Source: Burkholderiales bacterium
GTDB lineage: Bacteria > Pseudomonadota > Gammaproteobacteria > Burkholderiales > Burkholderiaceae_E
Assembly (NCBI GenBank): GCA_947487165.1
Contig: CANKWX010000030.1
Location: 1 to 43,170, forward strand
Direction of reading: 5' to 3'
DNA: 43,170 nucleotides
Made by a program: the position numbers and the translations under genes
Notes under the pieces: generated by a model
Databases searched by the model: none
What the model was told of the DNA's origin: nothing
The model's input: the letters and a program-made list of their open reading frames with translations, nothing else
Shown here: positions 2,305 to 43,088 of the stretch, piece by piece
Layout: every line of letters starts with the position of its first letter
Numbering within the stretch: position 1 is the first letter of the stretch

Positions 2305-2336
2305 GGAAGGCTGTGTTTGATCGAGCATCCTGCACC

Positions 2337-5430: not shown

Positions 5431-6341
5431 TCCATCGTTCCGCGCCGACGGGCGATCGGCAAGACGGTGGCACCGGCCCGCGCAGGCCGTCGCCATGCCC
5501 GGCCCACGATCCGCATGGCCTTGACCCGCTTGACCGCACACAGCGTGTACATCGCCCCGCAGACCGGCCACCAGCGGTCCCCTGCCCGCTCCATGAACTC
5601 AGTGCGATCAAGCCAGGCGCTGGTCCGGCAAGGCGGCCTGAAGCCGCCGTAGCGGGTTCGCTCGAGCTCGAAACCGAGCAGCTTGCACCAGTCGCGAAGC
5701 CGCGGCAGCCCGATCAGATGACCGGCACGCGGCATGAAGGGCGCAAGCACCGAAGGCGGCGCGAGCTGGCGCAGCCCCCACAAGCTGGCCGGATTGAAGC
5801 CGCAGACGATCATCCGTCCTTCGGGGCGCAGCACCCGATCGACCTCGCGCAGCACCTGATGCGGATCCTGAGCGAACTCCAGGACATGCGGCAGCACGAC
5901 CAGGTCAATCGACTGGCTCTCGAAGGGCAGCTCCTCGAAATGACTCACCCGCAGCAGCGGGCCGCGATCGGCCGGCAAGGGGTCGTCGGTAAGCAGTACG
6001 CCCACGCGATTGGCGATCCGATTATTGCGAAGCGCGTCGATTGCGGATTCGCCAAGCTGCACGGCATGAAATCCGAAGACGTCGCCGACCGACTCATCAA
6101 ACTGGGCCTGCTCCCAGTCGAGGACATAACGCCCGGGCGGCGATGCCAGCCAGGCCTGCCAATCGGACCGGACACCGCGCAGATCAGGATCGGGCGTCTG
6201 CCCCGGACCATCGCCCTCGGGCCGCGAACCGCCAGGCCTCGGGTCGGTGGCAGGGCGCGGAGCACTCGGCTGGTCGGCCGGCACGGAGTGACTCAGGCTC
6301 GAGCCGACCACCGACAATCTGTCCCGCGACCTCGATGTCAT
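5415..6341 (-). CDS. SAM-dependent methyltransferase-like protein with degenerate motif I
   Basis: A 308-residue class I methyltransferase-like protein (Methyltransf_11 type). The start at 6341 is set by a strong AAAGGAG Shine-Dalgarno 4 nt before ATG; upstream in-frame starts at 6371 and 6380 lack one. After an 80-residue hydrophilic, Pro/Arg-rich N-terminus comes the fold: YVLDWEQAQFDESVGDVFG, then HAVQLGE where the usual GxGxG SAM loop should be, then LPFESQSIDLVVLPHVLEFAQDPHQVLREVDRVLRPEGRMIVCGFNP. The motif IV and post-motif helices are well kept but motif I is not canonical. From memory this variant loop is shared by a betaproteobacterial family often found next to rnhA and glyoxalase II genes, so it is not simply decay. 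The substrate is unknown. The gene converges on cfa and is divergent from mltD. Confidence 0.82.
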   Translation of the reverse strand: MTSRSRDRLSVVGSSLSHSVPADQPSAPRPATDPRPGGSRPEGDGPGQTPDPDLRGVRSDWQAWLASPPGRYVLDWEQAQFDESVGDVFGFHAVQLGESAIDALRNNRIANRVGVLLTDDPLPADRGPLLRVSHFEELPFESQSIDLVVLPHVLEFAQDPHQVLREVDRVLRPEGRMIVCGFNPASLWGLRQLAPPSVLAPFMPRAGHLIGLPRLRDWCKLLGFELERTRYGGFRPPCRTSAWLDRTEFMERAGDRWWPVCGAMYTLCAVKRVKAMRIVGRAWRRPARAGATVLPIARRRGTMDQRGR

Positions 6342-27693: not shown

Positions 27694-28888
27694 TCTCGAT
27701 GATCGGCAGCAACACCGCCAGCACGATCATCAGCACGATCGCGCCCATCACCAGGATCAGCAAGGGTTCGAGCAGGCTGGTCAGCGCAAGCGTGCGGCGC
27801 TCGACTTCACCCGACAGGGTTTTGGCGGTGCGCTCAAGCATGTCGGGCAACTCGCCGGTGGCCTCGCCGCTGGCGATCATGTGGATCATGACCGGCGGGA
27901 AATAGCCGCCGGCCGCCAGCGCACGCGACAGCGGCGCGCCTTCGCGCACCCGTGACACCGCATCGACCACATTGGCCCGCATCGCCTCATTGGTGAGCGT
28001 CTGGGCACCGGCGTCGAGCGCGCGGATCAGCGGCACGCCGCTGGCGGTCAGGATGGCCAGGGTCGAGGCGAAACGCGCGGTATTCACCCCCCGGATCAGC
28101 CGGCCAAAGAGCGGGAGATCGAGCAGCCGCTTGTGCCAGGCCAGTTGCAGGCTCGGCGTCTTGAGCAGCGACTTCGCGCCCACCGCGACGCCGACCATCA
28201 GCAAGGCCACCAGCCAGCCCCAACGCCGTATAAAAGCCGACAGTTCGATGAGGATAACGGTCAATAGCGGCAACTTCTGCTTAGTTTGAGTAAAAACGCC
28301 GACCACTTGCGGCACCACATAGGTCAGCAGGGCGATGATCACGCCTGCGGCCACGATCGTGACAATGACCGGGTAGGTGAAGGCCATCGTGACCCGCTGG
28401 GCGAGCGCCGTCCGGGACTCGACATAGTCGGCCAGCCGCGACATCACCAGCCCGAGATCTCCCGACTGTTCGCCTGCCGCCACCAGCGCGCGATAGACAT
28501 CCGGGAAGTCGCGCGGATACTTGCCCATCGCCGCCGCAAGCGTCTGACCGGCGACCACCTCGCTTCTCACCGCTGCAAAGCGGTCGCGAACCACCGGCCG
28601 CTCGGCCTGCTCGACGATCGCAGCCAGGGCGCGTTCGAGCGGCAGACGCGCCGACAGCAGACTCGCCAGCTGTCGGGTCGCCATCGCCAGATCGGCATCC
28701 TTCAGGCGCCCGCCGATCACCATCGACCCGGCGCCGCCTGCCGCCCGGTCCTCGACTGTCGCCACCGAAATTGGGGTCAGACCCCGTTCACGAAGCACCC
28801 CCCGCGCCTGACGAGGGCTGTCGGCATCGACAATACCGCGTTCGATGCGCCCGGCGGCCGAGGCGGCCTCGAAGCGATAGGCCGGCAT
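27674..28888 (-). CDS. gspF: T2SS inner-membrane platform protein GspF
   Basis: A 404-residue polytopic inner-membrane protein that links the GspE ATPase to the pseudopilus. It has two copies of the T2SSF domain: the first around ATRQLASLLSARLPLERALAAI with membrane helices near 170-240, the second around ARFASTLAILTASGVPLIRALDAG with the final helix LLEPLLILVMGAIVLMIVLAVLLPI. The length is standard. Its start overlaps the gspE stop by one base (TGATG). It is the last gene of the minus-strand T2SS cluster and its 3' end overlaps the convergent CoxL-like gene by 20 bp. Confidence 0.96.
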   Translation of the reverse strand: MPAYRFEAASAAGRIERGIVDADSPRQARGVLRERGLTPISVATVEDRAAGGAGSMVIGGRLKDADLAMATRQLASLLSARLPLERALAAIVEQAERPVVRDRFAAVRSEVVAGQTLAAAMGKYPRDFPDVYRALVAAGEQSGDLGLVMSRLADYVESRTALAQRVTMAFTYPVIVTIVAAGVIIALLTYVVPQVVGVFTQTKQKLPLLTVILIELSAFIRRWGWLVALLMVGVAVGAKSLLKTPSLQLAWHKRLLDLPLFGRLIRGVNTARFASTLAILTASGVPLIRALDAGAQTLTNEAMRANVVDAVSRVREGAPLSRALAAGGYFPPVMIHMIASGEATGELPDMLERTAKTLSGEVERRTLALTSLLEPLLILVMGAIVLMIVLAVLLPIIEINQLVR

Positions 28889-30327
28889 CAGTCGCGCGTC
28901 ACGCGCACCACCTCGTCGAAGGAGGTCGTGCCGTCGTGCACCCAGCGAAAGCCATCGTCGCGCATGGTCTGCATGCCGCTTTTCTGTGCACTCGCGCGGA
29001 TTTCGCCCTCGCTGGCATTGCGATGGATCATGGCGCGAATGTCTTCATCGACCTGCAGCAGTTCGTAGATGCCGGTGCGCCCTGCATAGCCGGTGCGATT
29101 GCAGGCAACGCAGCCAACCGCACGCCAGCCCTTGGATACCGGATCGGGTTGCCGGCATTGCGTGCACAGTCGGCGCACCAGTCGCTGCGCACCCACGCCG
29201 AGCAGACTCGAGGACAGCAAAAAGGGCTCTACCCCCATGTCAATCAGGCGGGTAACCGCCGAGACCGCATCGTTGGTGTGCAGGGTGGCCAGCACCAGGT
29301 GGCCGGTGAGCGAGGCCTGCACCGCGATCTGCGCGGTCTCGAGGTCACGGATCTCGCCGATCATGATCACATCGGGGTCCTGGCGCAAGATCGAACGCAG
29401 TGCCTTGGCAAAGGTCATGTCGATCCGGGCATTGACCTGGGTCTGCCCGATGCCTTCCAGGTCGTATTCGATCGGATCCTCGACCGTCATGACATTGACC
29501 GTGGTCGCATCGATGCGATTGAGCGCCGAATAAAGCGTGGTGGTCTTGCCCGAGCCGGTCGGCCCGGTCACCAGCACGATGCCATGCGGCTGATGCACCA
29601 GCCGATCGAAACTGACCAGCGTCGCATCGGCCATGCCGAGCTTGGCCAGATCGAGCCGACCGGCCTCCTTTTCGAGCAGACGCAGCACCGCGCGCTCGCC
29701 GTGCCCGGTTGGGAGGGTCGAGACCCGGACGTCGACCGCGCGCCCGCCGATGCGCAGCGTAATGCGGCCATCCTGCGGCAGGCGTTTTTCGGCGATATCG
29801 AGGCTCGCCATGATCTTGATTCTCGAGACCAGCGCGGCATGCAATTCGCGCTTGGGCCGCACCACATCACGCAGCGCGCCATCGACCCGAAACCGCACCA
29901 TCGAATAGGACTCGAAGGGCTCGATATGGATGTCGGAGGCGCCATCGCGTGCCGCCTGGGTCAGCAGCGCATTGATCATGCGGATGATCGGCGCATCGTC
30001 CTCGGTCTCGAGCAGATCCTCGATCTTGGGGATGTCCTGCAGCAGCCGCGACAGATCGAGGTCGCTTTCGACCTCATCGACCACCGAGGCGGCTGAGCCC
30101 TCCTGCTGCGAGTAGGCCCGCGCAATGGCCGCCGACAGTTCAGGCCCGTCCTTGCGAACCGGCACCACCCGCAAAGGCAGCGTGCGCGCGAGTTCGGCCA
30201 GCGCCTGCGACGGTGTGGCATCGCCGACCCAGACCTCGATCGAATCCCCCGAGACGCCCGAGACCAGCATCTGATTCTGACGGGCGAAACCATAAGGGAC
30301 GTAGCGGGCAGGCGAGACCTGACTCAT
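28888..30327 (-). CDS. gspE: T2SS assembly ATPase GspE
   Basis: A 479-residue cytoplasmic hexameric ATPase that powers pseudopilus assembly. Visible motifs are Walker A GPTGSGKTTT (about 250-260), the Asp box TVEDPIEYDLEGIGQ, Walker B DVIMIGEIRD and the His box TGHLVLATLHTND. The C-terminal tetracysteine zinc site is present but short: CTQC and CVAC are separated by 14 residues, where the Vibrio EpsE type has about 29. The N-terminal GspL-binding domain is also compact. The ATG at 30327 follows a 70-bp gap after gspD and lacks a clear Shine-Dalgarno. Confidence 0.96.
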   Translation of the reverse strand: MSQVSPARYVPYGFARQNQMLVSGVSGDSIEVWVGDATPSQALAELARTLPLRVVPVRKDGPELSAAIARAYSQQEGSAASVVDEVESDLDLSRLLQDIPKIEDLLETEDDAPIIRMINALLTQAARDGASDIHIEPFESYSMVRFRVDGALRDVVRPKRELHAALVSRIKIMASLDIAEKRLPQDGRITLRIGGRAVDVRVSTLPTGHGERAVLRLLEKEAGRLDLAKLGMADATLVSFDRLVHQPHGIVLVTGPTGSGKTTTLYSALNRIDATTVNVMTVEDPIEYDLEGIGQTQVNARIDMTFAKALRSILRQDPDVIMIGEIRDLETAQIAVQASLTGHLVLATLHTNDAVSAVTRLIDMGVEPFLLSSSLLGVGAQRLVRRLCTQCRQPDPVSKGWRAVGCVACNRTGYAGRTGIYELLQVDEDIRAMIHRNASEGEIRASAQKSGMQTMRDDGFRWVHDGTTSFDEVVRVTRD

Positions 30328-30397
30328 GGAAGCGGCCCTATTTCAGCGAATTGCGAAGCGACACGAAACAACAGCGCCGGCATCAAGGGCCGCGGGC

Positions 30398-32884
30398 TCA
30401 CTTGGACGGACTGCCGGAGACCGGCGCACTCAGGTTGCGCTGAATGATGACCTCATTGGGTGCGGTTTGCATCACCCGCCCGTCGGCGCCGACATCGGGG
30501 TTAGCGGGCGCACCCGATGAAGCCGGGGCAAGTCCGGGCGCAGCACCCGGCGGCGATTGAGCCGGAGGCAGGCCGGGTGCCGTCAAGGTGGGAGCGGGCT
30601 GACCTGGCGCCGGCGGCAGCACCGCCTTCCAGCGATCTGCCATCGCATCGTTGAAGGCCGGTGAGACCCCGGGCGGGGCGGCGCCTGCGGTACCCGGGCG
30701 CGGTGGCATCGGCGAGAGCACCGGCGGCCGCAGCTGCGACTCCGGCATGAGTTCGCTCGGCGTGACCCGCGCATCGCCCTGCAGCATGCGGATGTAGTCG
30801 TATCGATCGGCGGTCAGGCCGTAGGAGCTGTCGGCGGTGCGCAGTACGACCGGGCGCAGGAACACCAGCAGATTGGTCTTGACCCGCTTGCGGGTGTCAT
30901 AGCGAAACAGGTTGCCGATGATCGGCAGGCGCCCCAGCCCCGGGACCATGCTGACGCTGCCCTCGACCCGCTCTTCAATCAGGCCGCCGAGCACCACCAG
31001 CTGGCCATCGTCGACCAGCACATTCGATTCGATCGCCCGCTTGTTGGTGATCAGACCGGCGGCGAGTGTTGCGTCCTGCACGCTCGAGACCTCCTGGAAG
31101 ATCTGCATGCGCACCGTTCCGCCCTCGGCCACCTGCGGGCGGACTCGCAGCGTCGTGCCGACGTCCTTGCGCTCGATGGTCTGGAAGGGATTGATCGCCC
31201 CGGCACCGCCGGTGGAGGTAAACGAGCCGGTGATGAAGGGCACGTTCTGGCCGATGATGATCCGGGCCTCTTCGTTGTCGAGCGTGACCAGGTTGGGCGT
31301 TGCCAGAATATTGGCGCCGGCTTCGGTCTCGAGCGCACGCGCCAGAAAACCGAGGTTGATCGGGCCGATGGTCGCGGTGCCGTTGGCCGACGTGCCGCCG
31401 AGCAGGGGCGCCGCACGGACGATACCGACGTTCAGACCTCGCCCCAGACTGCCGATGTTTTGCGCCGCGTCGATGATGTTGGAGCCGCCACCCCGGGGCG
31501 GCAGATTGGTGCCGCCGATCACCTGGTTCGAGCCGTTGGTGGGCTGCGACAGGAACTGCCACTGCACACCGAGTTCAAGCGCACGGTCGGCGCTGATCTC
31601 GACGATCAGCGATTCGATATAGACCTGCACCCGACGCGCATCGAGCTTTTCGATGACCGCGCGCAGATTGCGGTACACCGGCTCGGGCGCGGTGATGATG
31701 AGGGAGTTGGTGGCCGGATCTGCCGCGATCACTGCGCCGCCTGCCGACACGGCGGTCACCGCAACGCCCAGGCCGGTTTGCGCCAAAGCGGACGTCGCCG
31801 GCGACGCGCCGAGCTGCTGCTGACCGAGCATGCCACCGGCCTGCATGCCCTGGGCACCGGCCCCCTGCTGGACATTGGTGCCAAAGCCCGACGAACCGGC
31901 GCCACCGGTGCCGCCATCGCCGGCCAGCACCGAGCGCAGGACCCCCACCAGCCGCACCGCCTCGGCATTTCGCAGATAGACCACGCGGATGTTGCCCGAC
32001 TCGCTCGACGGCTGATCGAGGCGGGCGATCAGCCCCTTGGCCAGATTCATGCGGGCGCTACTGGCCGAGCGCAGCAGGATCGCGTTGATGCGGGTATCGG
32101 CCAGAACGGTCACCCGTTGCCCGGGGTCGACCACCGCGCCCGGCGTGCCGCCAGCGCGACTGGGGTCGTCGAGCAGCCGCGACACCTGCAGCGCCACGTC
32201 GCTGGCCAAGGCATGACGCATGGCCACCACCTCGACCTCACCGGCCACCGGGCTGTCGAGGGTGGCGATGATGCGGGCAAGTCGCTGCAGATTCGAGGCG
32301 TAATCGGTGATGACCAGCGAATTGTTGTTGGGATAGGCGACGATGGTGTTGTTCGGTGCGATCAGGGGCCTGAGCACCGGCACCACATTGCTCGCCGACT
32401 CATAGACCAGCCGGAAAACCTGGGTGACGATCTGCTCGCCGCCCGCCGTCGGACTGCGCCCGGCATTGACCGGCCCCGACTGCAGCTTGGCGTCGGCCTC
32501 AGGCACCACCCGGGAGATGGATCCGGTCTCGACGATGGCAAAACCCTGCAGCCGCAGCGAGGATTGCAGCAGTTCGTAGGCAGCCTGCGGCGATACCGGA
32601 CGTGCGGTCTCGACGGTGATCTTGCCGCGCACACGCGGGTCGATGATGAAGGTCCGGTTCAGGAGATGGCCGAATGCACCGACCACCGAGTCGATATCCG
32701 CGTCCTTGAAATTGAGCGTAATCGGCTGCGAACCACCGCCCGCGGCCGACTTGACGTCAGCTGCCGACACCATGCCGGGCCCTGCAACCATCGGCCCGAA
32801 ACACAACAGGGCAAATGCAAGCAGCCGCGCCATGAAGTGCGCGAGGCGGCTGGATGCCGGACGCTGCTGCTCGACAGAATTCAA
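30398..32884 (-). CDS. gspD: T2SS outer-membrane secretin GspD
   Basis: An 828-residue secretin that forms the outer-membrane channel. A TTG start at 32884 is supported by GGAG five bases upstream; an ATG at 32833 is an alternative that gives a tidier signal peptide (MARLLAFALLCFGP). The N0 domain (ITLNFKDADIDSVVGAFGHLLNRTFIIDP) is followed by N1-N3 repeats, with a Gly-rich insert near 310-350, and the secretin core ending in VPGLGRLPIIGNLFRYDTRKRVKTNLLVFLRPVVL. The last 110 residues are Pro/Ala-rich with no recognised S-domain, so pilotin dependence is unclear. It starts at the base after the gspN stop. Confidence 0.96.
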   Translation of the reverse strand: MNSVEQQRPASSRLAHFMARLLAFALLCFGPMVAGPGMVSAADVKSAAGGGSQPITLNFKDADIDSVVGAFGHLLNRTFIIDPRVRGKITVETARPVSPQAAYELLQSSLRLQGFAIVETGSISRVVPEADAKLQSGPVNAGRSPTAGGEQIVTQVFRLVYESASNVVPVLRPLIAPNNTIVAYPNNNSLVITDYASNLQRLARIIATLDSPVAGEVEVVAMRHALASDVALQVSRLLDDPSRAGGTPGAVVDPGQRVTVLADTRINAILLRSASSARMNLAKGLIARLDQPSSESGNIRVVYLRNAEAVRLVGVLRSVLAGDGGTGGAGSSGFGTNVQQGAGAQGMQAGGMLGQQQLGASPATSALAQTGLGVAVTAVSAGGAVIAADPATNSLIITAPEPVYRNLRAVIEKLDARRVQVYIESLIVEISADRALELGVQWQFLSQPTNGSNQVIGGTNLPPRGGGSNIIDAAQNIGSLGRGLNVGIVRAAPLLGGTSANGTATIGPINLGFLARALETEAGANILATPNLVTLDNEEARIIIGQNVPFITGSFTSTGGAGAINPFQTIERKDVGTTLRVRPQVAEGGTVRMQIFQEVSSVQDATLAAGLITNKRAIESNVLVDDGQLVVLGGLIEERVEGSVSMVPGLGRLPIIGNLFRYDTRKRVKTNLLVFLRPVVLRTADSSYGLTADRYDYIRMLQGDARVTPSELMPESQLRPPVLSPMPPRPGTAGAAPPGVSPAFNDAMADRWKAVLPPAPGQPAPTLTAPGLPPAQSPPGAAPGLAPASSGAPANPDVGADGRVMQTAPNEVIIQRNLSAPVSGSPSK

Positions 32885-33754
32885 TCAGGCTCCAATCTTG
32901 ATGATGGTCCGCTCACCTTCACGGCGACCCAACAACCCCAGCAGCGGCAGCAATCGCGCCCGCTCTGGCTCATCGGCCAGCGCCTCCGCGGTAAAGCGCA
33001 TACCCGAACGCGCATTCCAGACCCCGTTGCCATCAAGGCGCAATGGACCTGACAGTGTAGACATAGTGACCTTGGCCTGCTCGCCAGATCCGACGACCTC
33101 GATCCGGTAAGCGCCCAACGGACGGACTGGGGTGAGCGCAGAAGCCATCTGGGACAACTCGATCGCGGCACGCCCCTCAAAGCGACCGCCGCGAAGTGTC
33201 ATGTTTTCCCAGGACACCATCAGCGAGCCCGTCGGACGGATTGTATTCCAGGGAGAACCCAACCGGTCGAGCGCAACCTGCGGCAAGCGCAAGACGCCCG
33301 GTGTCGCCCGCAACTCGCCCGAACGGCCGGTAAGGATCACCGGTTCGCGCATGCTGTCGTGTTCGATCCGGGCATCGAGCACGCCCACCAGCAGCGACCA
33401 CGGCGAGACTCGCCAGTCAAAAAAACCGGGAATGACCACCCCGGGGACACTCGCTGCGCGATCGGGCGGCGCCTCGGCGCTCGCCTCCCGGATATCGGCC
33501 AGCACCAGCCGCCCCCTGCCCTGCCAGATCGTGCCGCTGGCATCGGCCAGCCGGACACGCCCTGTGGTGAAGCGCTCGAGGGCCAGATCGGCGAAGCTGG
33601 CCGGCGCCTGCCTCAGCACCACACCGGCCACGGTGAGCAGACCGGCCAGTGCCATGGCGATGCCCCAGCCATTGCCCAGGCCAAGGCTCATGCCCGCCAA
33701 TCCGCGGGCTCGCCGGGATGACTTGCTTGAAAGACTCGCGCCGGGCCGACTCAC
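32885..33754 (-). CDS. gspN: T2SS protein GspN
   Basis: A 289-residue protein with one N-terminal membrane segment (GIAMALAGLLTVAGVVL) and a periplasmic GspN domain. Family-like stretches include LADASGTIWQGRGRLVLADI, WRVSPWSLLVGVLDARIEHD and RPTGSLMVSWENMTLRGGRFEGRAAIEL. GspN is found in only some T2SSs and its role is not well defined. It starts at GTG overlapping the gspM stop (GTGA) and ends immediately before the gspD start, with the gspD ribosome-binding site inside its last codons. Confidence 0.9.
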   Translation of the reverse strand: MSRPGASLSSKSSRRARGLAGMSLGLGNGWGIAMALAGLLTVAGVVLRQAPASFADLALERFTTGRVRLADASGTIWQGRGRLVLADIREASAEAPPDRAASVPGVVIPGFFDWRVSPWSLLVGVLDARIEHDSMREPVILTGRSGELRATPGVLRLPQVALDRLGSPWNTIRPTGSLMVSWENMTLRGGRFEGRAAIELSQMASALTPVRPLGAYRIEVVGSGEQAKVTMSTLSGPLRLDGNGVWNARSGMRFTAEALADEPERARLLPLLGLLGRREGERTIIKIGA

Positions 33755-34251
33755 GGGCCGCGCTTCGGCACTTCGAGCGTGACGCGGGCACTCACCAGAC
33801 CCGGGGCTGATTCGCGTTCGAGCGCGACATCGACCGCTCGCAGCCGAGTCTCACGCAAAGCCGAGTCGAACCAGCCGAGCCAGTCCGCAAACGGCACGCC
33901 CTTGAACCGCAGGTCGATCAGGTCACCGGCGACCGTCAGCTGGGACATCGATCCCTTGAGCCCGGCCGCCGCAATCGACTGCTCGAGCGCCAGCTTGAGC
34001 TGCTGCGGCGTCTCGGCGGCCTGGCTGGTCTGGCCGGCCAGTCGCTGCGCCTCGCCGGCCAGGCCTTCCATCTCGGCAAGCTGGCCGCGCAACTGCGGCA
34101 ATTCGGCCTGCAGGCGCTGGCGCCCGACCCAGGCAGGCTCGAATGCCAGCAGATAGGCCAGCACCATGATCACGCCGGCACCGCCGTAGCCGAGCATCCG
34201 CCGCTCGCGAAGCTGCAGCGAAGACCACCATTGAAGGAGCTTTTCAATCAT
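33751..34251 (-). CDS. gspM: T2SS inner-membrane protein GspM
   Basis: A 166-residue bitopic protein: short cytoplasmic N-terminus (MIEKLLQWWSSLQLRERRM), one membrane helix (LGYGGAGVIMVLAYLLAF), a coiled-coil-like periplasmic segment rich in Leu/Glu/Gln/Ala, and a C-terminal ferredoxin-like domain. It partners GspL in the inner-membrane platform. The ATG at 34251 has GGTGG five bases upstream; a GTG at 34260 is also in frame. It follows gspL closely and overlaps gspN by 4 bp. Confidence 0.9.
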   Translation of the reverse strand: MIEKLLQWWSSLQLRERRMLGYGGAGVIMVLAYLLAFEPAWVGRQRLQAELPQLRGQLAEMEGLAGEAQRLAGQTSQAAETPQQLKLALEQSIAAAGLKGSMSQLTVAGDLIDLRFKGVPFADWLGWFDSALRETRLRAVDVALERESAPGLVSARVTLEVPKRGP

Positions 34252-34263
34252 GACAGCCACCGC

Positions 34264-35511
34264 TCACCGCTGCACGCCGACCACAGCGGTCGGATCGCGT
34301 TCATTGTCGAACTGCAGCTTAAGCCCCGCCTTGGCACAGGCATCAAGCAGGGCTTCGCGCGCCGCACGGCCATCGACCCGCTGCGTCTGAAAACGCACCT
34401 TCAGGCGCCCCTCGCGAAACTCTGCGCCGGCAATTGCATCAGCGCCGGCCGGCCCCAGGGCCTGGCCGAGCTGCGCCATCAGCGGCACGAAATCGTCCGG
34501 ACCACTCTGGCCGCTGCGCGCCCGCAGGTCGGCGATCTGCCGATTCATCTGCAGCAACGGATCGACCACCACCTGGGCGGACGGAAATGCACTGCGAAAC
34601 GTCGATTCAAGACTGCGCCGCAGAGCATCCTTTTCGCGTCCCAGCTGGATCCAGTGCAGATTCAGCCCGATCAGCCAGGCCAGCAGACACGCACCGGCAA
34701 TCGCCATCGGCAGTCGCCAGGCCCGGACATCGAAGGCCGCCAGCATGCGACGCGACGCCGCCGCCCGGCCCGACAGCAGGTCGATCCCGCCCTCCTCGGG
34801 CGGCGCGATCGGTGCGATCTCGAGCGGCAAGGCCAGACGCGCTGCGGCCCGCTCGATCGGCGCATGCCAGGCAGTGTTATCGACCCAGGCCGACAGACTG
34901 TCGGGCCGCTCGCCCCCCGCCATCGCCGCCTCCAGCAGCGCCACCACCGACTCGGTACGCAGATCGACATCGTCCGGGGCACCCCAGCCGAGGCCCTGAA
35001 AGGGGCCGGTTCGCAAAGCGATGCCGCCCCGCACGCAGCCGATCGACCAGGTACCCTGACGCCAGGGCAGGGCCAGCTGTGCCGGCCAGGCGGCGCGCAC
35101 CTTCATGCCACGGCGCTCGAAGGCACCCACCGTGAACTCAAGCCAGGCCCGATCGATGACCGCGATCAGCCGACGCCCTGACTCCAGCGGCGGGCCGATC
35201 ACGAAGGCGCAGGACGCTGCGTCCTGCAGCAGCGACTCCTCGACAATATTGGGAACCGCTTGCACCAGCCGCGCCCCGGAGAGCATCGGCACCTCGGGCA
35301 TCAGCAGCGTGACGTCACGGGCATCGAAGACCAGTTGCACCTGCGTCGTGCCGGCAAGCCCGTCAAGCGAGACTCTCTCGATCGCGCTGCCTGCAAGCTG
35401 GCCGCCCCGAAACGCGAGCAGATGCGCCTCGGTGCCGAAGGCGCGTTCGCCGTCGCTGCGGGGCGGCAGCCAGACGACCGCCCTACCCCGCTTCATCGGC
35501 GCAACTGCCAT
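34264..35511 (-). CDS. gspL: T2SS inner-membrane protein GspL
   Basis: A 415-residue protein joining the GspE ATPase to the membrane platform. The cytoplasmic actin-like part covers about residues 1-250 (VVWLPPRSDGERAFGTEAHLLAF near the start). One membrane helix follows (LPMAIAGACLLAWLIGLNLHWIQL), then a periplasmic ferredoxin-like domain ending near LKLQFDNERDPT. The ATG at 35511 lies right after GAGGTGG and inside the end of gspK (19-bp overlap). An ATG at 35496 is a possible shorter start. Confidence 0.93.
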   Translation of the reverse strand: MAVAPMKRGRAVVWLPPRSDGERAFGTEAHLLAFRGGQLAGSAIERVSLDGLAGTTQVQLVFDARDVTLLMPEVPMLSGARLVQAVPNIVEESLLQDAASCAFVIGPPLESGRRLIAVIDRAWLEFTVGAFERRGMKVRAAWPAQLALPWRQGTWSIGCVRGGIALRTGPFQGLGWGAPDDVDLRTESVVALLEAAMAGGERPDSLSAWVDNTAWHAPIERAAARLALPLEIAPIAPPEEGGIDLLSGRAAASRRMLAAFDVRAWRLPMAIAGACLLAWLIGLNLHWIQLGREKDALRRSLESTFRSAFPSAQVVVDPLLQMNRQIADLRARSGQSGPDDFVPLMAQLGQALGPAGADAIAGAEFREGRLKVRFQTQRVDGRAAREALLDACAKAGLKLQFDNERDPTAVVGVQR

Positions 35512-36425
35512 ACCACCTCGACACGGTCGCTTCCACGCTCCAACAGGGTCTCGCTCTGCGATTCGACTCGGTCGTAGCGTATCACTCCGGTCACAATGAA
35601 ATAGGCCGAGCCGACCGCCAGCATTTCGGGGCTCAGCACCGGCTGCCCTTCGATATCCGTCGATACGTCGCCCAGCGTTCGGTAGAAGGTGCGCTCACGG
35701 CGAGCGACGAATCGGCGCGCCCCCGACAATTCCATCGTCGGAATCGCTGCAGCGATCACTTCGGGCGGCGCGGTATTGATATTGATGGTGGTCGCTCGCG
35801 GCAGCACGGTCACGAAAGGCTCGAGTGCTCTGACCGTCACCAGGTCGACACCCGGGATATCGAGCAGGTCGGCCAGCCGCAGCACCGGCTCGCGCGCAGG
35901 GGGTATGACCCGGCCCTCGAATACCCGTGGCGCCGACTGCAGAACCCGATCGACCACCAGATCGGCGGCCGACTCGGGACGGCCCACCAGCGACAGGAGC
36001 TTTCGAAGGGCGGCCACATGCGGCGCCGATGCCGTGCCATTGCCACCGACCAGCGAATTCAGGTTGAACAGCGCCTGGGCGTCGGCGATCTGTCCGGCGA
36101 GCATCGCCTTGCGTGCGCCTTCATCGAGCTTGGCGCCGGCGGTCACGGTTTCATCGAGACGGGTGTCGACCACCGGCACCGCCCAGGGCTCACCCAGATG
36201 ATCGACTGCGCCAGCGCGCTGATCGGCCCGCAGGATGACCTTCGCCCAATCGACCGCAGCCCGTTCGATCCAGCGGCTTTGCGACAGCGCGAGTCGATTC
36301 TCGATCGATCGGACCGCCACATTCTCGCGCCAGAACAGCCCGGAGACCACGACCGCCGCCAGCGTCACCACCAGCATCGCGGTGATGATCGCCGCACCGC
36401 CCTGGCGCTTTGGGTAGCGACGCAT
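35493..36425 (-). CDS. gspK: T2SS minor pseudopilin GspK
   Basis: A 310-residue minor pseudopilin, the large one that caps the pseudopilus tip with GspI and GspJ. The prepilin leader is MRRYPKRQGG followed by AAIITAMLVVTLAAVVVSGLF. As is usual for GspK, the mature protein lacks the Glu5 found in other pseudopilins. The body contains NLNSLVGG and the helix-hairpin-like ININTAPPEVIAAAIP. The length is typical (about 300-330). It starts 2 bp after gspJ ends. Confidence 0.94.
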   Translation of the reverse strand: MRRYPKRQGGAAIITAMLVVTLAAVVVSGLFWRENVAVRSIENRLALSQSRWIERAAVDWAKVILRADQRAGAVDHLGEPWAVPVVDTRLDETVTAGAKLDEGARKAMLAGQIADAQALFNLNSLVGGNGTASAPHVAALRKLLSLVGRPESAADLVVDRVLQSAPRVFEGRVIPPAREPVLRLADLLDIPGVDLVTVRALEPFVTVLPRATTININTAPPEVIAAAIPTMELSGARRFVARRERTFYRTLGDVSTDIEGQPVLSPEMLAVGSAYFIVTGVIRYDRVESQSETLLERGSDRVEVVWQLRR

Positions 36426-36427
36426 GC

Positions 36428-37207
36428 TCAGTCCTTCACCGGGAAGATCCGCTCAAGCACTTTGCCGTCACTGCGCACGACCACGACCTGCAGGCCGGTG
36501 ACCATGGCAACCGGCGACGGCGGTGGCGCAGCCGCAGGCGGCGGGGAGCCTCCCGTCGCAGACGGGGCACCGCTCTGGCCGCCTGCCGGCGGGGCAGCCG
36601 CAGCCGCTGCGGCCTTGAGCTGACCGGCGAGCGCTTCAGCCACCACCCAGCCCTGACCCTGCACCCAGCCCTGCATTCTGAGCCCCGACACGCCGCCCAG
36701 TACCGGCTGCCAGACCAGTCCGCCCGCCCCTGCATCGGCATCGCTGCCGAGGGGTTTCGCAGACGGCGCAGCTGACGAGACCACCAGCGGACCGAAACCG
36801 CGCTCGAGCACATCCCCGCGCAGGCGCCAGGCGACCCGCTGGATTTTCGTCGGCTCCAGGGCCCCGGTCGACTCGCGCAACAGCTCAAGCGTGGTGGTTG
36901 CCTGTTCGCCCGAGACCGAAAAGGCGATCGACGGCACCGGCAGCTTGAGCAGACGCACCGGCCAGGACTTGCGCAGGTCTTCATCCATCTGCGCAAAGGC
37001 GATCGTCATAAAGCGTAATTCGTCGGAGGCCTTGGCAATCCGATCGCGCGAGGTCAGCACGGTATCGAGTCCGCGCCAGGACAGGAGCGCCAGCACCGCC
37101 AGCAGCGTTGCCGCAATCAGCAGCTCAATCAGCGTGAAGCCGCGCAGGCCGCGCCGCCGGCCGGCGCGCACTCGCCTCGCATCACGATCAGCGAAGGACC
37201 CGTTCAT
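36428..37207 (-). CDS. gspJ: T2SS minor pseudopilin GspJ
   Basis: A 259-residue minor pseudopilin. The ATG at 37207 overlaps the gspI stop (ATGA) and gives a 23-residue basic leader before the cleavage motif RG|FTLIELLIA. The body matches GspJ (LSWRGLDTVLTSRDRI, FAQMDEDLRKSWPVR, WRLRGDVLERGFGP). Near the C-terminus is an Ala/Gly/Pro-rich insert of about 45 residues (after AGQLKAAAAAAA) before the last strand. That makes it longer than most GspJ and may be a lineage-specific loop. Confidence 0.93.
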   Translation of the reverse strand: MNGSFADRDARRVRAGRRRGLRGFTLIELLIAATLLAVLALLSWRGLDTVLTSRDRIAKASDELRFMTIAFAQMDEDLRKSWPVRLLKLPVPSIAFSVSGEQATTTLELLRESTGALEPTKIQRVAWRLRGDVLERGFGPLVVSSAAPSAKPLGSDADAGAGGLVWQPVLGGVSGLRMQGWVQGQGWVVAEALAGQLKAAAAAAAPPAGGQSGAPSATGGSPPPAAAPPPSPVAMVTGLQVVVVRSDGKVLERIFPVKD

Positions 37208-37608
37208 GGCAAGTTCGTCGCAAAGCCCACCAGCCGCGCCAGCCGCACCCGCTGCCCGTCGACCGGAAACACGCTCACCTCGACCCGCCTGAACTGAGGA
37301 TTGGGCGTGACGAACACTTCTTCCTCGCAGGTCATCGCCACATCGGCCTGGGTGCAGTCGTAGCTGCGCTTGCCCTGCTCCGGCCACTCGCCCTGGATCC
37401 GGATTCGCCCAAGCCGGTTCTCGGCACTCCACTGTGCAAGCGTGCGCTGGTGCAACTCGCCGGCGCTGGTGGCCAGCGAGCCGGTTGCCCGCAACGAGGC
37501 CATCAGGGCCACCGCGACGATGGTCAGGGCCACCAGCACCTCAACCAGCGTGAAGCCGCCGACCGGCCTTCGCAACCCGGCACTCAGGACGCGCTCAGTC
37601 AATGACAT
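37204..37608 (-). CDS. gspI: T2SS minor pseudopilin GspI
   Basis: A 134-residue minor pseudopilin with the prepilin motif PVGG|FTLVEVLVALTIVAVALMA. Family-like ARNLAQ-equivalent sequence is AQWSAENRLGRIRIQGEWP, and two cysteines in DCTQADVAMTCEEE could form a disulfide. The start at 37608 (MSLTERVLSAG) lies inside the end of gspH (14-bp overlap). An open frame extends upstream but would give an implausibly long leader. Confidence 0.93.
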   Translation of the reverse strand: MSLTERVLSAGLRRPVGGFTLVEVLVALTIVAVALMASLRATGSLATSAGELHQRTLAQWSAENRLGRIRIQGEWPEQGKRSYDCTQADVAMTCEEEVFVTPNPQFRRVEVSVFPVDGQRVRLARLVGFATNLP

Positions 37609-38116
37609 CGAAGCTGCCCAGGCCGTTGGCAACAATCGTGACGCTTGCGCCCGGCCGCTGCATCCTGACTCGATAAGGCGCCTCGACCATGTCGCGCCCG
37701 AACTCGAGCGACGCGGTGCCATCGGCCCGCTCGATCAGCAGTCGGGTTTCGGTGCCCCAGGGCCGTGGCCGCAGATCGCCGTCGTCGGCCACGGTTCGCC
37801 ATTGCCGGTCGCGAAAGATCACAAAGCGATAACCGCTCGAATCACTTTCGAAGCGGATCGGCGCACCGCGCACCTGCGCTTCCTCACGGGCCAGCGACAG
37901 CAGCAGCGCCAACCGCTCGGCGTCCTGGCGCAGCACCCGGTCGGGACTCGGCGACCCCGACAGGGTGACCATGCCGGTGATGACCGCCACCACGATGAGC
38001 ACAACCAGCAACTCGATCAGGGTGAAGCCACGCTGGCCGATTGAGACACGCCTGCTCGGTCGGACCAGGAGCGGCCCGCCAGGCTGGCGGTCGGGGGATA
38101 TCCACCTCGGGGCCAT
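37595..38116 (-). CDS. gspH: T2SS minor pseudopilin GspH
   Basis: A 173-residue minor pseudopilin with the cleavage motif GQRG|FTLIELLVVLIVVAVI and the GspH/FimT body (ERLALLLSLAREEAQVRGAPIRFES, GYRFVIFRDRQWR). The ATG at 38116 leaves a 30-residue leader. A GTG at 38167 would lengthen it to 47 and overlap gspG by 13 bp. Neither has a strong Shine-Dalgarno, so the start is uncertain while the gene is not. Confidence 0.88.
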   Translation of the reverse strand: MAPRWISPDRQPGGPLLVRPSRRVSIGQRGFTLIELLVVLIVVAVITGMVTLSGSPSPDRVLRQDAERLALLLSLAREEAQVRGAPIRFESDSSGYRFVIFRDRQWRTVADDGDLRPRPWGTETRLLIERADGTASLEFGRDMVEAPYRVRMQRPGASVTIVANGLGSFDVID

Positions 38117-38154
38117 CAGGCACCGGGTTCGCTCAAGCGAAAGAAAGTGCCGGA

Positions 38155-38607
38155 TCAGAGGTTCCACGAACCGATGTCGGCCTCGACACCGGTGCCGCCT
38201 GCCTGGCCGTCGGCGCCCAGGCTGAAGACATCGATCTCGCCGCGCACGCCGGGGCTCAGGTATTGATAGGGACGCCCCCAGGGGTCGCTCGGAAGCTTCT
38301 CGAGATAGGACTTCCAGTTAGTTGGCAGCGGACCGCCGGTGGGCCGCACGACCAGCGCCTGCAGGCCCTGCTCGGTGGTCGGGTAACGCGAATTGTCGAG
38401 GCGATAGAGCTTGAGCGCCTGCATCACCTGGGCGATGTCCTGGCGCGCGGCCACCACGCGGGCCTCATCCGGACGGTTCATGACGCGCGGCACGACCAGC
38501 GCGGCAAGGACCCCGAGAATCATGATCACAACCATCAGCTCGATGAGCGTGAAGCCGGTCTGCCTGAGTGCGCGACGACCGCGACCAAGGGGGTTTTGCA
38601 TGACCAT
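38155..38607 (-). CDS. gspG: T2SS major pseudopilin GspG
   Basis: A major pseudopilin of about 150 residues that builds the periplasmic pseudopilus. The leader ends RQTG|FTLIELMVVIMILGVLAALVVPRVM, with Glu5 in place. Hallmarks are DEARVVAARQDIAQVMQALKLYRLDNSRYPTTEQGLQALV and the calcium-loop region PSDPWGRPYQYLSPG. I prefer the ATG at 38607 because GGGAAA precedes it; 38601 and earlier ATGs are possible. It is the first gene of the minus-strand cluster gspG-H-I-J-K-L-M-N-D-E-F and is divergent from gspC. Confidence 0.95.
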   Translation of the reverse strand: MVMQNPLGRGRRALRQTGFTLIELMVVIMILGVLAALVVPRVMNRPDEARVVAARQDIAQVMQALKLYRLDNSRYPTTEQGLQALVVRPTGGPLPTNWKSYLEKLPSDPWGRPYQYLSPGVRGEIDVFSLGADGQAGGTGVEADIGSWNL

Positions 38608-38754
38608 CGATTTCCCGCCCATAAACTGAATGATTACTGACCGATTGCCGGATGATTCATTTCGCATGGCGCGCAGGTGCCACCTGATTCAGCCTGATGC
38701 CGCCGGGACAAGGACTGAGCAGCCTGACTGGAAAGGCAGGCCTTGCCGGTCGAC

Positions 38755-39572: not shown

Positions 39573-40367
39573 ATGCGGCCCTATCACGATCTGATGCGAC
39601 ATGTTCTCGAGCACGGTGTCCAGAAAGCCGATCGCACCGGCACCGGCACCCGCTCGGTCTTCGGCTGGCAGATGCGCTTCGATCTTGCGCAGGGTTTTCC
39701 GCTGGTCACCACCAAGAAGCTGCATCTCAAATCGATCGTCCACGAGCTGCTGTGGTTTTTGTCCGGCTCGACCAACGTCGCCTATCTACGCGACAACGGT
39801 GTCTCGATCTGGGATGAGTGGGCCGATGCCGACGGCGAGCTCGGCCCGGTCTATGGCCACCAGTGGCGCTCATGGCCCACGCCCGAGGGCACGCATATCG
39901 ACCAGATCAGCGAACTCATGGAGCGCCTCAAGCGCGATCCCGATTCGCGTCGTCTGATCATCTCGGCCTGGAACGTTGCCGAGCTGCCGAAGATGGCGCT
40001 TGCGCCTTGCCATGCGCTGTTCCAGTTCTATGTGGCCGACGGCAGGCTGTCGTGCCAGCTCTATCAGCGCAGCGCCGACATCTTCCTGGGCGTGCCCTTC
40101 AACATCGCGTCGTATGCGCTGCTGACCGAGATGGTCGCGCAGCAATGCGACCTGACGCCCGGCGACTTCGTCTGGACCGGCGGCGACTGCCACCTGTATC
40201 TCAACCATCTCGATCAGGCTCGCGAGCAGCTCGCCCGCGAGCCCTTTGCACTGCCGCGCCTCGAATTCAAGCGCCGCCCGGCGTCGATCTTCGACTATCA
40301 CTACGACGATATCGCGATCACCGGCTATCAGGCGCATCCGCACATCAAAGCGCCGGTCGCGATCTGA
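39573..40367 (+). CDS. thyA: Thymidylate synthase
   Basis: A 264-residue cytoplasmic enzyme making dTMP from dUMP with methylenetetrahydrofolate, the same length as E. coli ThyA. Motifs: [17 protein letters not shown] (phosphate/dUMP Arg), [23 protein letters not shown], catalytic Cys in [31 protein letters not shown] and DCHLYLNHL. The product dihydrofolate is recycled by FolA, encoded 7 bp downstream, so the pair is functionally and probably translationally linked. Confidence 0.98.
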
Positions 40368-40374
40368 GGCTGCC

Positions 40375-40881
40375 ATGGCCTCCGCGATGCCCCGCCTGAC
40401 CATCGTGGTCGCCCGTGCCCGCAACGGCGCGATCGGCCGCGACAATGCCATGGCCTGGCATCTGCCCGAGGACCTGCAGCACTTCAAGACAACGACGCTT
40501 GGGCACCCGATCATCATGGGGCGCCTGACCTTCGATTCGATCGGGCGGCCGCTGCCCGGACGGCGAACGATCGTCATCACCCGCAATCCGCAGTGGTCGC
40601 ACGACGGTTGCGAGCGCGCCGGCTCGCTCGATGACGCCATCGCCCTGTGCCAGGGTGCGACCGACATCTTCATCGTGGGCGGGGCGCAACTTTATTCGCA
40701 GGCTTTGCCGCTGGCCGACCGTATCATCGTGACCGAAGTCGATCTCGAGGTCGACGGCGACGCTTTCTTCCCGGCACTCGACACGATGAACTGGACCCGT
40801 ATCAGTACGGCCCCCGCGGTGAGTCGAACCGGCCTGCACTACGCCATCGATCTCTGGGAGCCGGCGCGCGATACCCGCTGA
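40375..40881 (+). CDS. folA: Dihydrofolate reductase
   Basis: A 168-residue enzyme reducing dihydrofolate with NADPH; the target of trimethoprim. Visible features: IVVARARNGAIGRDNAMAWHLPEDLQHFK (active-site acid is Glu in LPEDL, where E. coli has Asp27), PIIMGRLTFDSIGRPLPGR, IVITRNP, IFIVGGAQLYSQALPLADRIIVTEVD and DAFFP. The ATG at 40375 follows the thyA stop by 7 bp; an ATG at 40387 is an alternative that starts closer to the first strand. The sequence gives no basis for calling it trimethoprim resistant. Confidence 0.97.
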   Translation: MASAMPRLTIVVARARNGAIGRDNAMAWHLPEDLQHFKTTTLGHPIIMGRLTFDSIGRPLPGRRTIVITRNPQWSHDGCERAGSLDDAIALCQGATDIFIVGGAQLYSQALPLADRIIVTEVDLEVDGDAFFPALDTMNWTRISTAPAVSRTGLHYAIDLWEPARDTR

Positions 40882-40926: not shown

Positions 40927-42447
40927 ATGAACGAATCGATTCCAAGCGCCGCAAGGGTATCGACCCGCCAACTCGACGAATTCAACGCCCTGTATCGGAT
41001 GTTCGATGTGCGGGGCAATGGTCGACTGACACGACAGCAGACCGATGAAGCGCTGCAAGTCCTCGGCCTGGGGTTGTGCGACCACGACCGACAGAAGTTG
41101 CTCGATGCGGTTGACGCTGCCGGCGAGATCACGCAGTCGGCGTTCATCGACTGGCTCTGCCAGCGCAGCGACTTCGATCTCAATCGCGAGATGCGCTCGC
41201 TTTTTTCGCTGCTGGATACCTCCGGCGACGGCCTCGTCTGCGCCGATGAGATGCTCATGCTCGCACGCTGTCTCGATCCGGACTTGAACGAGACCGTACT
41301 CGAAGCCCTGATCGCAAGCCACGACACCGACGGCGACCGGATGATCAGTTTCGATGACTTCATGGCCATGCAGCAGTCGGGCGGTCAACTGCAGGTCACG
41401 ATCGCGGGCATCCGACGATTTCGAAAGCTGCTGGGCCGCTATGCGCTGGCCGCACGCATTCCGCGCATCGCACTGGTCGAAGTCGACTCGGACCTCGGCG
41501 CAGGGCGGGCCGGTGCGGGCGGCGGTATCGCTCTGTTGCGCCAAAGCGCCCTGCAACGCGCGCTCGACACCCGCACGACCACTCTGCGCGGCAGACAACT
41601 GGAACGCGACATACAGGAACGCGACAGCACAACGCCGCATGCGCGCAATATCGACGCCATCCGCACGCTGCTCGAGCAGGCCAGCGCACTGGTCTGCGAG
41701 ACGCTGCAACAGCACGAGTTTCCGGTGGTGCTGGCTGGCGACCATTCGACCGCCGCGGGGACGATCGCCGGCATCGCGAAGGCGTTTCCCGACAAGCGCC
41801 TGGGTGTCGTCTGGATCGATGCCCATGCCGATATTCACTCACCCTACACATCGCTGTCGGGCAACATGCACGGCATGCCGATTGCGATTGCCGGGCGTTT
41901 TGATAACACGGCCAATGCGGTCAATACGCTCGATGACGTGACCCGTGCGCACTGGGACGCCTGCAAGGCGCTCGGGCGCCGTGACAAGGCGAACCTCGAT
42001 CTGCGTGATCTGGTCTATGTGAGCGTGCGCGACACCGAACCTGCCGAGGATGCTGCCATCGCGAAGTTCGCCATCCCGATCTTTCGCACTGCACAGATTC
42101 GGCGTCTTGGGCCTGAGGCGGTGGCGCAAGCCTGCCTCGACCACCTGAACGAGGCCGACATCATTTATGTCTCATTCGATGTCGACAGCATGGATGCCGC
42201 CATCTGCATGGGCACCGGCACACCGGTGGCGGGCGGCATCACCGCCGACGAAGCCGCGCGAATCAATCGGCGACTGGTGAGTGATCCGCGGGTGGTGTGC
42301 TGGGAGATCTGCGAGATCAACCCCGAACTCGATCTGCGCAACTCGACCGGACAGGTATCGATGAGGGTCTACGAAGCAACCCTCGATGCGCTTCACATGC
42401 GCCTGGCCACCGCAGCCGCGATCCACGCCCGACGCGACGGCGTCTGA
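40927..42447 (+). CDS. EF-hand/arginase fusion protein
   Basis: A 506-residue protein joining a calmodulin-like N-terminus to a ureohydrolase. Residues 15-150 hold four EF-hand-spaced helices: loops 1 (27-38) and 2 (about 63) are degenerate, while loops 3 (D97-E108, DTSGDGLVCADE) and 4 (D133-D144, DTDGDRMISFDD) look able to bind Ca2+. Residues about 170-500 are arginase-like with all six Mn ligands: His273 (GDHS), Asp298, His300 and Asp302 (DAHAD), Asp418 and Asp420 (SFDVDSMD). The arginase pocket residues Ser311 and His315 (SGNMHGMP) and Glu463 (CEINPELD) are also present, favouring arginase over agmatinase. The position of the substrate-contacting Asn in arginase (DINTP) is His304 here. No signal peptide is seen. 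It lies 45 bp after folA without an obvious Shine-Dalgarno. Calcium control of arginine hydrolysis is inference. Confidence 0.93.
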   Translation: MNESIPSAARVSTRQLDEFNALYRMFDVRGNGRLTRQQTDEALQVLGLGLCDHDRQKLLDAVDAAGEITQSAFIDWLCQRSDFDLNREMRSLFSLLDTSGDGLVCADEMLMLARCLDPDLNETVLEALIASHDTDGDRMISFDDFMAMQQSGGQLQVTIAGIRRFRKLLGRYALAARIPRIALVEVDSDLGAGRAGAGGGIALLRQSALQRALDTRTTTLRGRQLERDIQERDSTTPHARNIDAIRTLLEQASALVCETLQQHEFPVVLAGDHSTAAGTIAGIAKAFPDKRLGVVWIDAHADIHSPYTSLSGNMHGMPIAIAGRFDNTANAVNTLDDVTRAHWDACKALGRRDKANLDLRDLVYVSVRDTEPAEDAAIAKFAIPIFRTAQIRRLGPEAVAQACLDHLNEADIIYVSFDVDSMDAAICMGTGTPVAGGITADEAARINRRLVSDPRVVCWEICEINPELDLRNSTGQVSMRVYEATLDALHMRLATAAAIHARRDGV

Positions 42448-42641: not shown

Positions 42642-43088
42642 ATGAACCGTCGTCACTTCATTTTTGCCACCTGCTCGGCAACTGTCGCACTGACCGCCTG
42701 CTCAGGCCTGCCGATGGGCATGGGCTCGTCGGGCAGCAGTACCGCCGCCATGCTGAGCGGCCTGCAAAGCGCCACCGGCCTGTCGGCCAACCAGAGCACC
42801 GCGAGCGCCGGCGCACTGATGGGCCTGGCTCAGAACAAGCTGTCGCCGACCGATTTTTCGAGCATCAGCAAAAGCCTGCCCGGCATGTCCGACATGATCA
42901 GCAAAGGCTCGTCGCTCGCCGGTGTCTCGCCGTCGGCACTCACCTCGATGAGCTCGGTCGCCAGTGCGGTCTCGAGCCTCGGTGTGACTCCTGCCCAACT
43001 GAACTCGGTTGCAGGCTATATGGGCAAGTATCTGGGCGGCGCCGGCAACAGCTCGGCCGCCTCGCTCCTGGCGGGCGTTCTTCGCTGA
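42642..43088 (+). CDS. DUF2780-type exported lipoprotein
   Basis: A 148-residue protein of unknown function. The N-terminus MNRRHFIFATCSATVALTACSG combines a twin-arginine-like motif (RRHFI) with a lipobox (LTAC, Cys20), so it may be a Tat-exported lipoprotein. The mature part is rich in Ser, Gly, Ala, Leu and Met, with the DUF2780 (VcgC/VcgE-like) pattern: ASAGALMGLAQNKLSPTDFSSISKSLPGMSDMISKG, then VASAVSSLGVTPAQLNSVAGYMGKYLGGAG and a final LLAGVL. AAGGA precedes the start by about 9 nt. It is followed by 82 bp to the window edge in which I see only a weak hairpin without a T tract. Confidence 0.82.
   Translation: MNRRHFIFATCSATVALTACSGLPMGMGSSGSSTAAMLSGLQSATGLSANQSTASAGALMGLAQNKLSPTDFSSISKSLPGMSDMISKGSSLAGVSPSALTSMSSVASAVSSLGVTPAQLNSVAGYMGKYLGGAGNSSAASLLAGVLR

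Follow-up and report, generated by a model that had tools for sequence, protein, structure and literature searches.

Whether Ca2+ acts in bacteria as a second messenger that controls enzymes is an old open question. It is raised again by a gene in a 43,170-nt stretch of DNA from a Burkholderiales bacterium (contig CANKWX010000030.1; the whole stretch is called the window here), whose 506-residue product joins a calmodulin-like EF-hand domain to an arginase-type ureohydrolase. Two proteins of one short pathway, this arginase and a urea transporter (UT), each carry EF-hands in relatives and are often encoded together, which bears on Ca2+ signalling in bacteria. The closest described enzyme, bacterial arginase (RocF; TIGR01229, PF00491; B. 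subtilis 6nfp, Thermus 2eiv), shares with the fusion its fold, the six metal ligands, the SGNxHG loop, the EIN motif and the length of loop A, but the fusion adds a calmodulin-like domain and linker of ~180 residues, has His and Glu at two substrate-reading positions, and scores just under the NCBIfam arginase cut-off. Nearest to its enzyme domain outside the fused clade are unfused arginase-type enzymes of Bacteroidota (L028 and kin), which have the same His and Glu, but in which no EF domain was found and whose gene neighbours differ from those of the fused genes. The EF-hand part resembles calmodulin and troponin C in having two EF-hand pairs, and differs from them in its degenerate second EF-hand (EF2) and its covalent attachment to an enzyme. 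The relatives' neighbouring gene encodes the full domain of known urea transporters (PF03253; Yut), but its product has ~200 extra residues including EF-hands and falls under the NCBIfam Yut cut-off. Plant and protist Ca2+-dependent protein kinases, which unite an enzyme, a basic junction helix and a calmodulin-like domain in one chain, offer an analogy; the fusion differs from them in its unrelated enzyme and opposite domain order, and no evidence of autoinhibition was seen in it. In the open literature, at the level of titles and abstracts, we met neither a bacterial arginase nor a bacterial urea transporter described as carrying EF-hands; such a description may exist in subscription papers or in database annotations. 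The same level yielded no account of a calcium-controlled urea pathway; an earlier note, made from the letters of this DNA, knew of no description of calcium control of a bacterial arginase.

The open reading frame has no internal stop, and its product divides into a calmodulin-like EF-hand region (amino acids [aa] 12-150), a conserved basic helix (aa 159-176), and a complete arginase-type ureohydrolase (aa 181-482). Pfam EF-hand_7 matched two stretches (E 4.5e-16; best at aa 88-148) with 59.4 bits against a cut-off of 30, which qualifies as a Pfam EF-hand pair, and Pfam Arginase (PF00491) matched the enzyme half with E 1.5e-51 (176 bits against a cut-off of 22). With phmmer against PDB sequences, calmodulin-containing chains matched the N-terminal half (best 4il1, E 9.8e-17, aa 10-152), and a match to the enzyme half came from the arginase of Thermus (2eiv, E 4.7e-39). 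Twenty other fused proteins were aligned with the window protein (n = 21; the start codons of some were assigned by hand). Because of these E-values and the 20 fused relatives, a chance occurrence of EF loops was ruled out. An assembly chimera was likewise ruled out, as the gene is present in five genomes of the window's genus, and in four of these the contig also covers the EF part. The fusion described in the earlier note is real and conserved: the EF-hand and arginase profiles both score above cut-off, and the homologues collected share the architecture, with a canonical third loop (EF3) in 21/21.

Judged by loop residues, good Ca2+ loops number three in most of the fused family, against one in the window clade. 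Three of four loops are canonical in 16/21 fused proteins, and one of four in the window protein, so that neither reaches four. The exceptions at EF1 are the window protein and its near relatives L002-L004; those at EF4 are the same four and L018. An initial count of two canonical and two degenerate loops therefore stood in part. The loop at aa 97-108 (EF3) was indeed canonical, but in that at aa 133-144 (EF4) Arg replaces the Gly of position 6 and Asp the Glu of position 12, and it is not fully canonical; EF2 proved degenerate in all 21 proteins, but EF1 only in the window's clade (4/21). In six pairwise comparisons of the window gene, L002, L003 and L004, dN/dS was 0.11-0.19 for the EF region (aa 12-150) and 0.10-0.15 for the arginase region (aa 181-485), and the EF region of the window clade is still under purifying selection.

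More striking than the fusion itself is the neighbouring EF-hand UT in many relatives. A UT gene lies next downstream on the same strand in 19/29 fused loci outside the window. The neighbour count covers these 29 fused loci and three EF-less ones. It excludes the window, L006, whose contig does not reach the EF part, and L031, a broken fusion copy with a UT piece downstream; in some loci little sequence follows the arginase gene before the contig ends. The Pfam UT domain was matched with E 2.4e-62 to 6.3e-74 in the four complete copies scanned, three of which had C-terminal Pfam EF-hands above cut-off (EF-hand_7 up to 2.5e-17). By pattern, most complete copies carry three EF loops, some two, and the L005 copy one.

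Genome searches, in which L012 was not included, found a UT in 22/32 handles; the ten without one are eight handles of the window's genus (taken as five genomes), G304 and G450. Handle counts double three genomes, since L002, L003 and L004 in G074, G075 and G076 are apparently the same assemblies as G054, G048 and G052. No UT was found in 14 control genomes (0/14). Urease alpha scored over the cut-off in 17/20 genomes versus 3/14 control genomes, the background being those 14 and not matched cyanobacteria. Among 386 cyanobacterial genomes, 14 had a UT over the cut-off, 12 of these with C-terminal EF loops and two (G152, G219) with a different long C-terminal domain; the 386-genome tallies are a loose first look, with at most 4 (arginase) or 6 (UT) candidates scored per genome, and UT matches below the cut-off in G269, G370 and G445 were left uncounted. 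An EF-hand UT was present in 9/10 cyanobacterial carriers of the arginase clade compared to 3/376 others (Fisher p 4.6e-15, relatedness ignored). Among the ten carriers are G091, which lacks an EF domain, and G280 and G450, in which the fusion is broken across frames; G304 (distant, unfused) was left out; without G091 among the carriers, the counts became 8/9 and 4/377 (Fisher p 3.9e-13, relatedness ignored). As a control, Bacteroidota genomes with the unfused enzyme had a UT in 3/16 cases, and those 3 lacked EF loops.

EF-hand UTs were also seen in three cyanobacterial genomes without an EF-arginase reaching E 1e-60 (L123, L124 and L125 in G460, G466 and G217), and UT-EF fusions can apparently occur independently of the EF-arginase. 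A second kind of UT fusion (L121, L126, L127, L136-L138; frames of 717-743 aa) has a long C-terminal domain without EF-hand loops, which may resemble a peptidase M23/LytM-type domain.

We then considered how the two halves of the protein may be connected. AlphaFold2, supplied with the 21 fused sequences, gave a model (mean pLDDT 74.9; aa 188-240 and two short stretches <50) of EF-hand helices, a single helix at aa 159-176, and an arginase fold starting at strand 181, with the helix continuing directly into the first core strand. The 50 Foldseek matches listed for the full model were all arginases (best 6nfp, 1.3e-16). When aa 1-182 were modelled alone (mean pLDDT 76.8), the matches listed were mostly calmodulins and kin, and ranks 1 and 4 went to chains that combine calmodulin with a tethered target peptide (3wfn, 2f2p). 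TM-scores were low (0.3-0.5 by query length), which makes any lobe arrangement read from these matches tentative. Within the helix, A160 and K167 are invariant in the fused proteins and L169 and Y172 are conserved in at least 90%; no such helix was seen in three aligned unfused Bacteroidota relatives.

Taken together, these data suggest a Ca2+-tuned arginine-to-urea module, Ca2+ control being the part that we infer. On balance, the window protein is probably an arginase-type ureohydrolase whose N-terminal calmodulin-like domain serves as a built-in Ca2+ sensor. The enzyme half, to judge from its residues, would split cytosolic arginine into ornithine and urea. Ca2+ on EF3 and EF4 (and on EF1 in most relatives) would move the calmodulin-like domain relative to the basic helix, and this movement, transmitted through the helix that leads into the first core strand, would alter activity, assembly or docking. 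The same Ca2+ signal would act on the EF-hands of the UT, matching urea production to the passage of urea across the membrane, with urease as a urea sink where present; urea may leave, enter or feed urease. If the UT has its ends placed like those of solved bacterial UTs, its EF-hands face the cytosol, and one Ca2+ signal could therefore act on both enzyme and transporter. A joint role of Ca2+ is plausible because the frequent operon partner itself carries EF-hands. We put forward more tentatively, as a serious possibility, a bacterial Ca2+-controlled urea module in which cytosolic Ca2+ would act at once on a calmodulin-like arginase and an EF-hand urea channel, whose neighbouring genes would have been exchanged among cyanobacteria, Myxococcota and Burkholderiales; the window would represent a later stage, with the channel lost and the sensor changing. 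Three-loop, one-loop and EF-less versions of the one enzyme exist as natural controls. As building blocks, the fusions could be of use where urea or ornithine production is to be switched by Ca2+.

Several observations weigh against Ca2+ control of this enzyme and its partner. EF1 and EF4 of the window protein are altered, leaving EF3 as its sole fully canonical loop, and no UT was found in the window's genus (0/8 handles, taken as 5 distinct genomes). In the UT beside L005, the window's nearest UT-bearing relative, the pattern recognised one EF loop, and none of the Pfam EF-hand scores reached the cut-off. At loci L008-L011 and L090 the gene lacks a UT neighbour, a UT copy lying elsewhere in those genomes, and G450, the genome of L027, has none. 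The EF domain is dispensable, since the arginase persists in two sub-lineages (L026; L023 and L025) that lack it. The linker is a weak candidate for a calmodulin-target helix: it is conserved and basic, yet not unusually amphipathic (z 0.7-2.1 versus shuffles). On the side of the enzyme, the best NCBIfam model, arginase rocF (TIGR01229), gave 216.7 bits, below its cut-off of 227.6; the L005 genome (G077), with four PF00491 matches, could handle arginine otherwise; and a SpeA/LysA-type decarboxylase gene near L028 and 30/52 other unfused loci would also fit agmatine. The Ca2+-gated arginase of the earlier note thus draws support from the conserved fusion, the EF3 loop and the EF-hand UT partner, and is weakened by the single fully canonical loop of the window protein. 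With changes in two of its three ancestral Ca2+ loops and no UT match, the window lineage is a derived case of the fused family, and any Ca2+ control there is probably weaker or on EF3 alone (or EF4 binds Mg2+).

The altered EF1 and EF4 and the lack of a UT match in the window's genus would also be expected if the EF domain of this lineage were a relic that no longer responds to Ca2+ and merely helps the fusion to fold. We regard this as rather unlikely: EF3 is intact in 4/4 window-clade sequences, and the EF region and the enzyme have similarly low dN/dS. Slightly less likely still is docking instead of gating, in which the EF-hands of enzyme and UT would form an assembly for handling urea, by tethering the two or through a common binding partner, and Ca2+ would only stabilise the fold. 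Three canonical loops in 16/21 fused proteins argue for ion binding, and the window clade retains its EF domain though no UT was found there; docking would, however, account for EF-hands on both neighbouring gene products, for an EF region kept under selection, and for the degenerate EF2 (21/21) and the end of the UT EF region, which reads as a degenerate fourth EF-hand, as in scaffold EF-hands.

With Ca2+ sensing by the fused domain as the preferred reading, we turned to the substrate of the enzyme half. Residues H273, D298, H300, D302, D418 and D420, which correspond to the six metal ligands of arginase structures, are invariant in the 21 aligned fused proteins, as is the SGNxHG motif; both features had been pointed out in the window protein, and they hold across the family. 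According to passages of one study, loop A of human arginase (I129-L140) decides between arginine and agmatine. There, N130D alone yielded an enzyme that acts on both; three substitutions combined with a three-residue deletion in the loop made it agmatine-only, and the substitutions without the deletion left arginase activity only, which points to the length and shape of loop A as a main arginase/agmatinase determinant, position 130 also being important (PMC9224512).

At the positions of the Asn and Asp that mark the arginase family (human 130 and 183), the window protein has H304 and E371. All 21 fused proteins have H304 in the DINTP motif. Wherever the pattern could read this motif, clade members have His, fused and unfused alike (the unfused Bacteroidota L033, L039, L040 and L045 were unmatched), and those with a match at the second position all have Glu. 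Comparison arginases (Bacillota, archaeal, Sinorhizobium) have Asn in 4/4 and Asp in 3/3 with a match at the second place. The His/Glu pair thus marks a subfamily that includes the unfused Bacteroidota enzymes, and is not specific to the fusion. Because of H304 and E371, we file the window enzyme as an arginase-type ureohydrolase of the His/Glu subfamily and not as a standard RocF. The suggestion that the His may alter specificity was right about the residue, but loop A has arginase length and keeps the equivalents of S137 and N139.

After rocF, the next NCBIfam models on the window protein were formimidoylglutamase (79.8 bits) and two agmatinase models (68.8 and 66.7 bits). Unfused Bacteroidota enzymes scored 242.3 (L028, which passes the arginase cut-off with the same His and Glu), 220.0 (L041) and 201.2 (L049), the last two below it. 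The decarboxylase gene near L028 gave 153.2 bits with the biosynthetic arginine decarboxylase model, whose cut-off is 369. In the five Burkholderiales handles, neither SpeA above cut-off (59-71 bits only) nor agmatine deiminase was found, in a search that did not extend to other arginine decarboxylase types; in the other five genomes SpeA is accompanied by agmatine deiminase or by additional PF00491 genes. The window's genome and G074 have one PF00491 gene each, and one of the four matches in G077 is a 64-residue frame. Given the arginase length of loop A and the SpeA/agmatine deiminase pattern across genomes, arginine appears to be a more likely substrate than agmatine. That agmatine or another guanidino compound is the substrate, as decarboxylase genes near unfused relatives and the score below the arginase cut-off might indicate, is improbable in view of loop A with S311 and N313 and the low agmatinase scores beside 216.7 bits for arginase, on which agmatine was set aside as first choice, and also of the Burkholderiales handles and the score of L028.

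Relatives were taken from a scan of one genome per species (84,980 species), from which the best 80 of 119 were kept. In a tree of 55 enzyme domains, with repeats and most Bacteroidota left out, 30 fused rows and three EF-less cyanobacterial rows form one clade (100/100) beside the Bacteroidota enzymes. The fused relatives belong to Burkholderiales, cyanobacteria and one Myxococcota, and the EF domain needs three changes on the tree, most simply one gain and two losses. Since the window clade and L005 are nested among cyanobacteria and a Myxococcota row, we infer transfer as the simplest account of their position. The gene is sparsely distributed: 5/74 genomes of the window's family, all in one genus (12 sampled genomes); 1/399 of an order sample, the window's own; 1/282 in a sample of the phylum of the Myxococcota genome, that genome alone; and, at E 1e-60, 11/386 cyanobacterial genomes, among them the distant, unfused copy of G304, the EF-less one of G091, and those of G280 and G450, which are split over frames. 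In a plasmid collection, no record had one place covering 80% of the window protein. Fusion genes of the cyanobacterial records L015, L027, L031 and L094 are split across reading frames, by decay or sequencing error. Some record labels look at odds with the tree, with L002 ('Bordetella parapertussis') beside Burkholderiales metagenome-assembled genomes, L021 ('Bifidobacterium breve') inside cyanobacteria, and L054 ('Saccharibacteria') inside Bacteroidota.

Table 1. Positions in the window of the fusion gene, its parts and its neighbours.
Feature	Position	Strand	Remarks
thyA (thymidylate synthase), upstream neighbour	39573..40367	+	PF00303 4.9e-125
folA frame (dihydrofolate reductase)	40246..40881	+	PF00186 5e-55; real start probably inside
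EF-hand/arginase fusion gene	40927..42447	+	506 aa, stop-free; Pfam and phmmer matches
EF1 loop, aa 27-38, DVRGNGRLTRQQ	41005..41040	+	Non-canonical in window (R at 3, Q at 12); canonical in 17/21 fused proteins
EF2 remnant, aa 62-73	41110..41145	+	Shortened/degenerate in 21/21 fused proteins
EF3 loop, aa 97-108, DTSGDGLVCADE	41215..41250	+	Canonical in 21/21 fused proteins
EF4 loop, aa 133-144, DTDGDRMISFDD	41323..41358	+	Without Gly-6 and Glu-12 in window (Arg, Asp); canonical in 16/21
Linker helix, aa 159-176, IAGIRRFRKLLGRYALAA	41401..41454	+	AlphaFold model and alignment; net charge +5 over aa 158-175
Arginase-family domain, aa 181-482	41467..42372	+	Pfam, Foldseek
Loop A, aa 303-314, IHSPYTSLSGNM	41833..41868	+	Full arginase length (I303-M314); H304 at human N130; S311, N313 at S137, N139
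Loop B, aa 369-372 (DTEP)	42031..42042	+	E371 at human D183
DUF2780 protein gene, downstream	42642..43088	+	Pfam; 19/29 fused relatives have a UT gene at this place

In the window, the folA frame ends 45 nt before the fusion gene. Between 39400 and 42700 no promoter-like site was found, and terminator-like sites numbered 3 versus 1.9 expected; Rfam gave no match in the window. Regulatory genes stand near the fusion gene in some cyanobacterial loci. Regulators of the partner-switch type were seen in L007 (4378-7941), L009 (3-2501) and L011 (3903-7602), where L011 and one L009 gene have protoglobin-STAS, STAS, HATPase and SpoIIE domains by Pfam and the other regulators were called by similarity. 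In one cyanobacterial sub-clade, CheA- and CheB-like genes lie directly upstream of the fusion gene (L016 2468-5723, L017 2565-5823, L020 2468-5723), called by Pfam for L016 and by similarity for L017 and L020. A conserved gene of ~90 aa, without a Pfam match in L018, is divergent from the fusion gene there (5594-5863, minus strand), and similar frames were seen in L024, L088, L091 and L094. Elsewhere in the window, a PLP aminotransferase gene at 2313-3515 (plus strand) matched PRK06108 with 539 bits against a cut-off of 422; the guanitoxin cyclodehydratase GntC model came second with 246.7 bits, far under its cut-off of 415. A type II secretion gene cluster occupies 27674-38667 (minus strand), with F, E, D, L, K and G recognised by profile and other pseudopilin-like frames between them.
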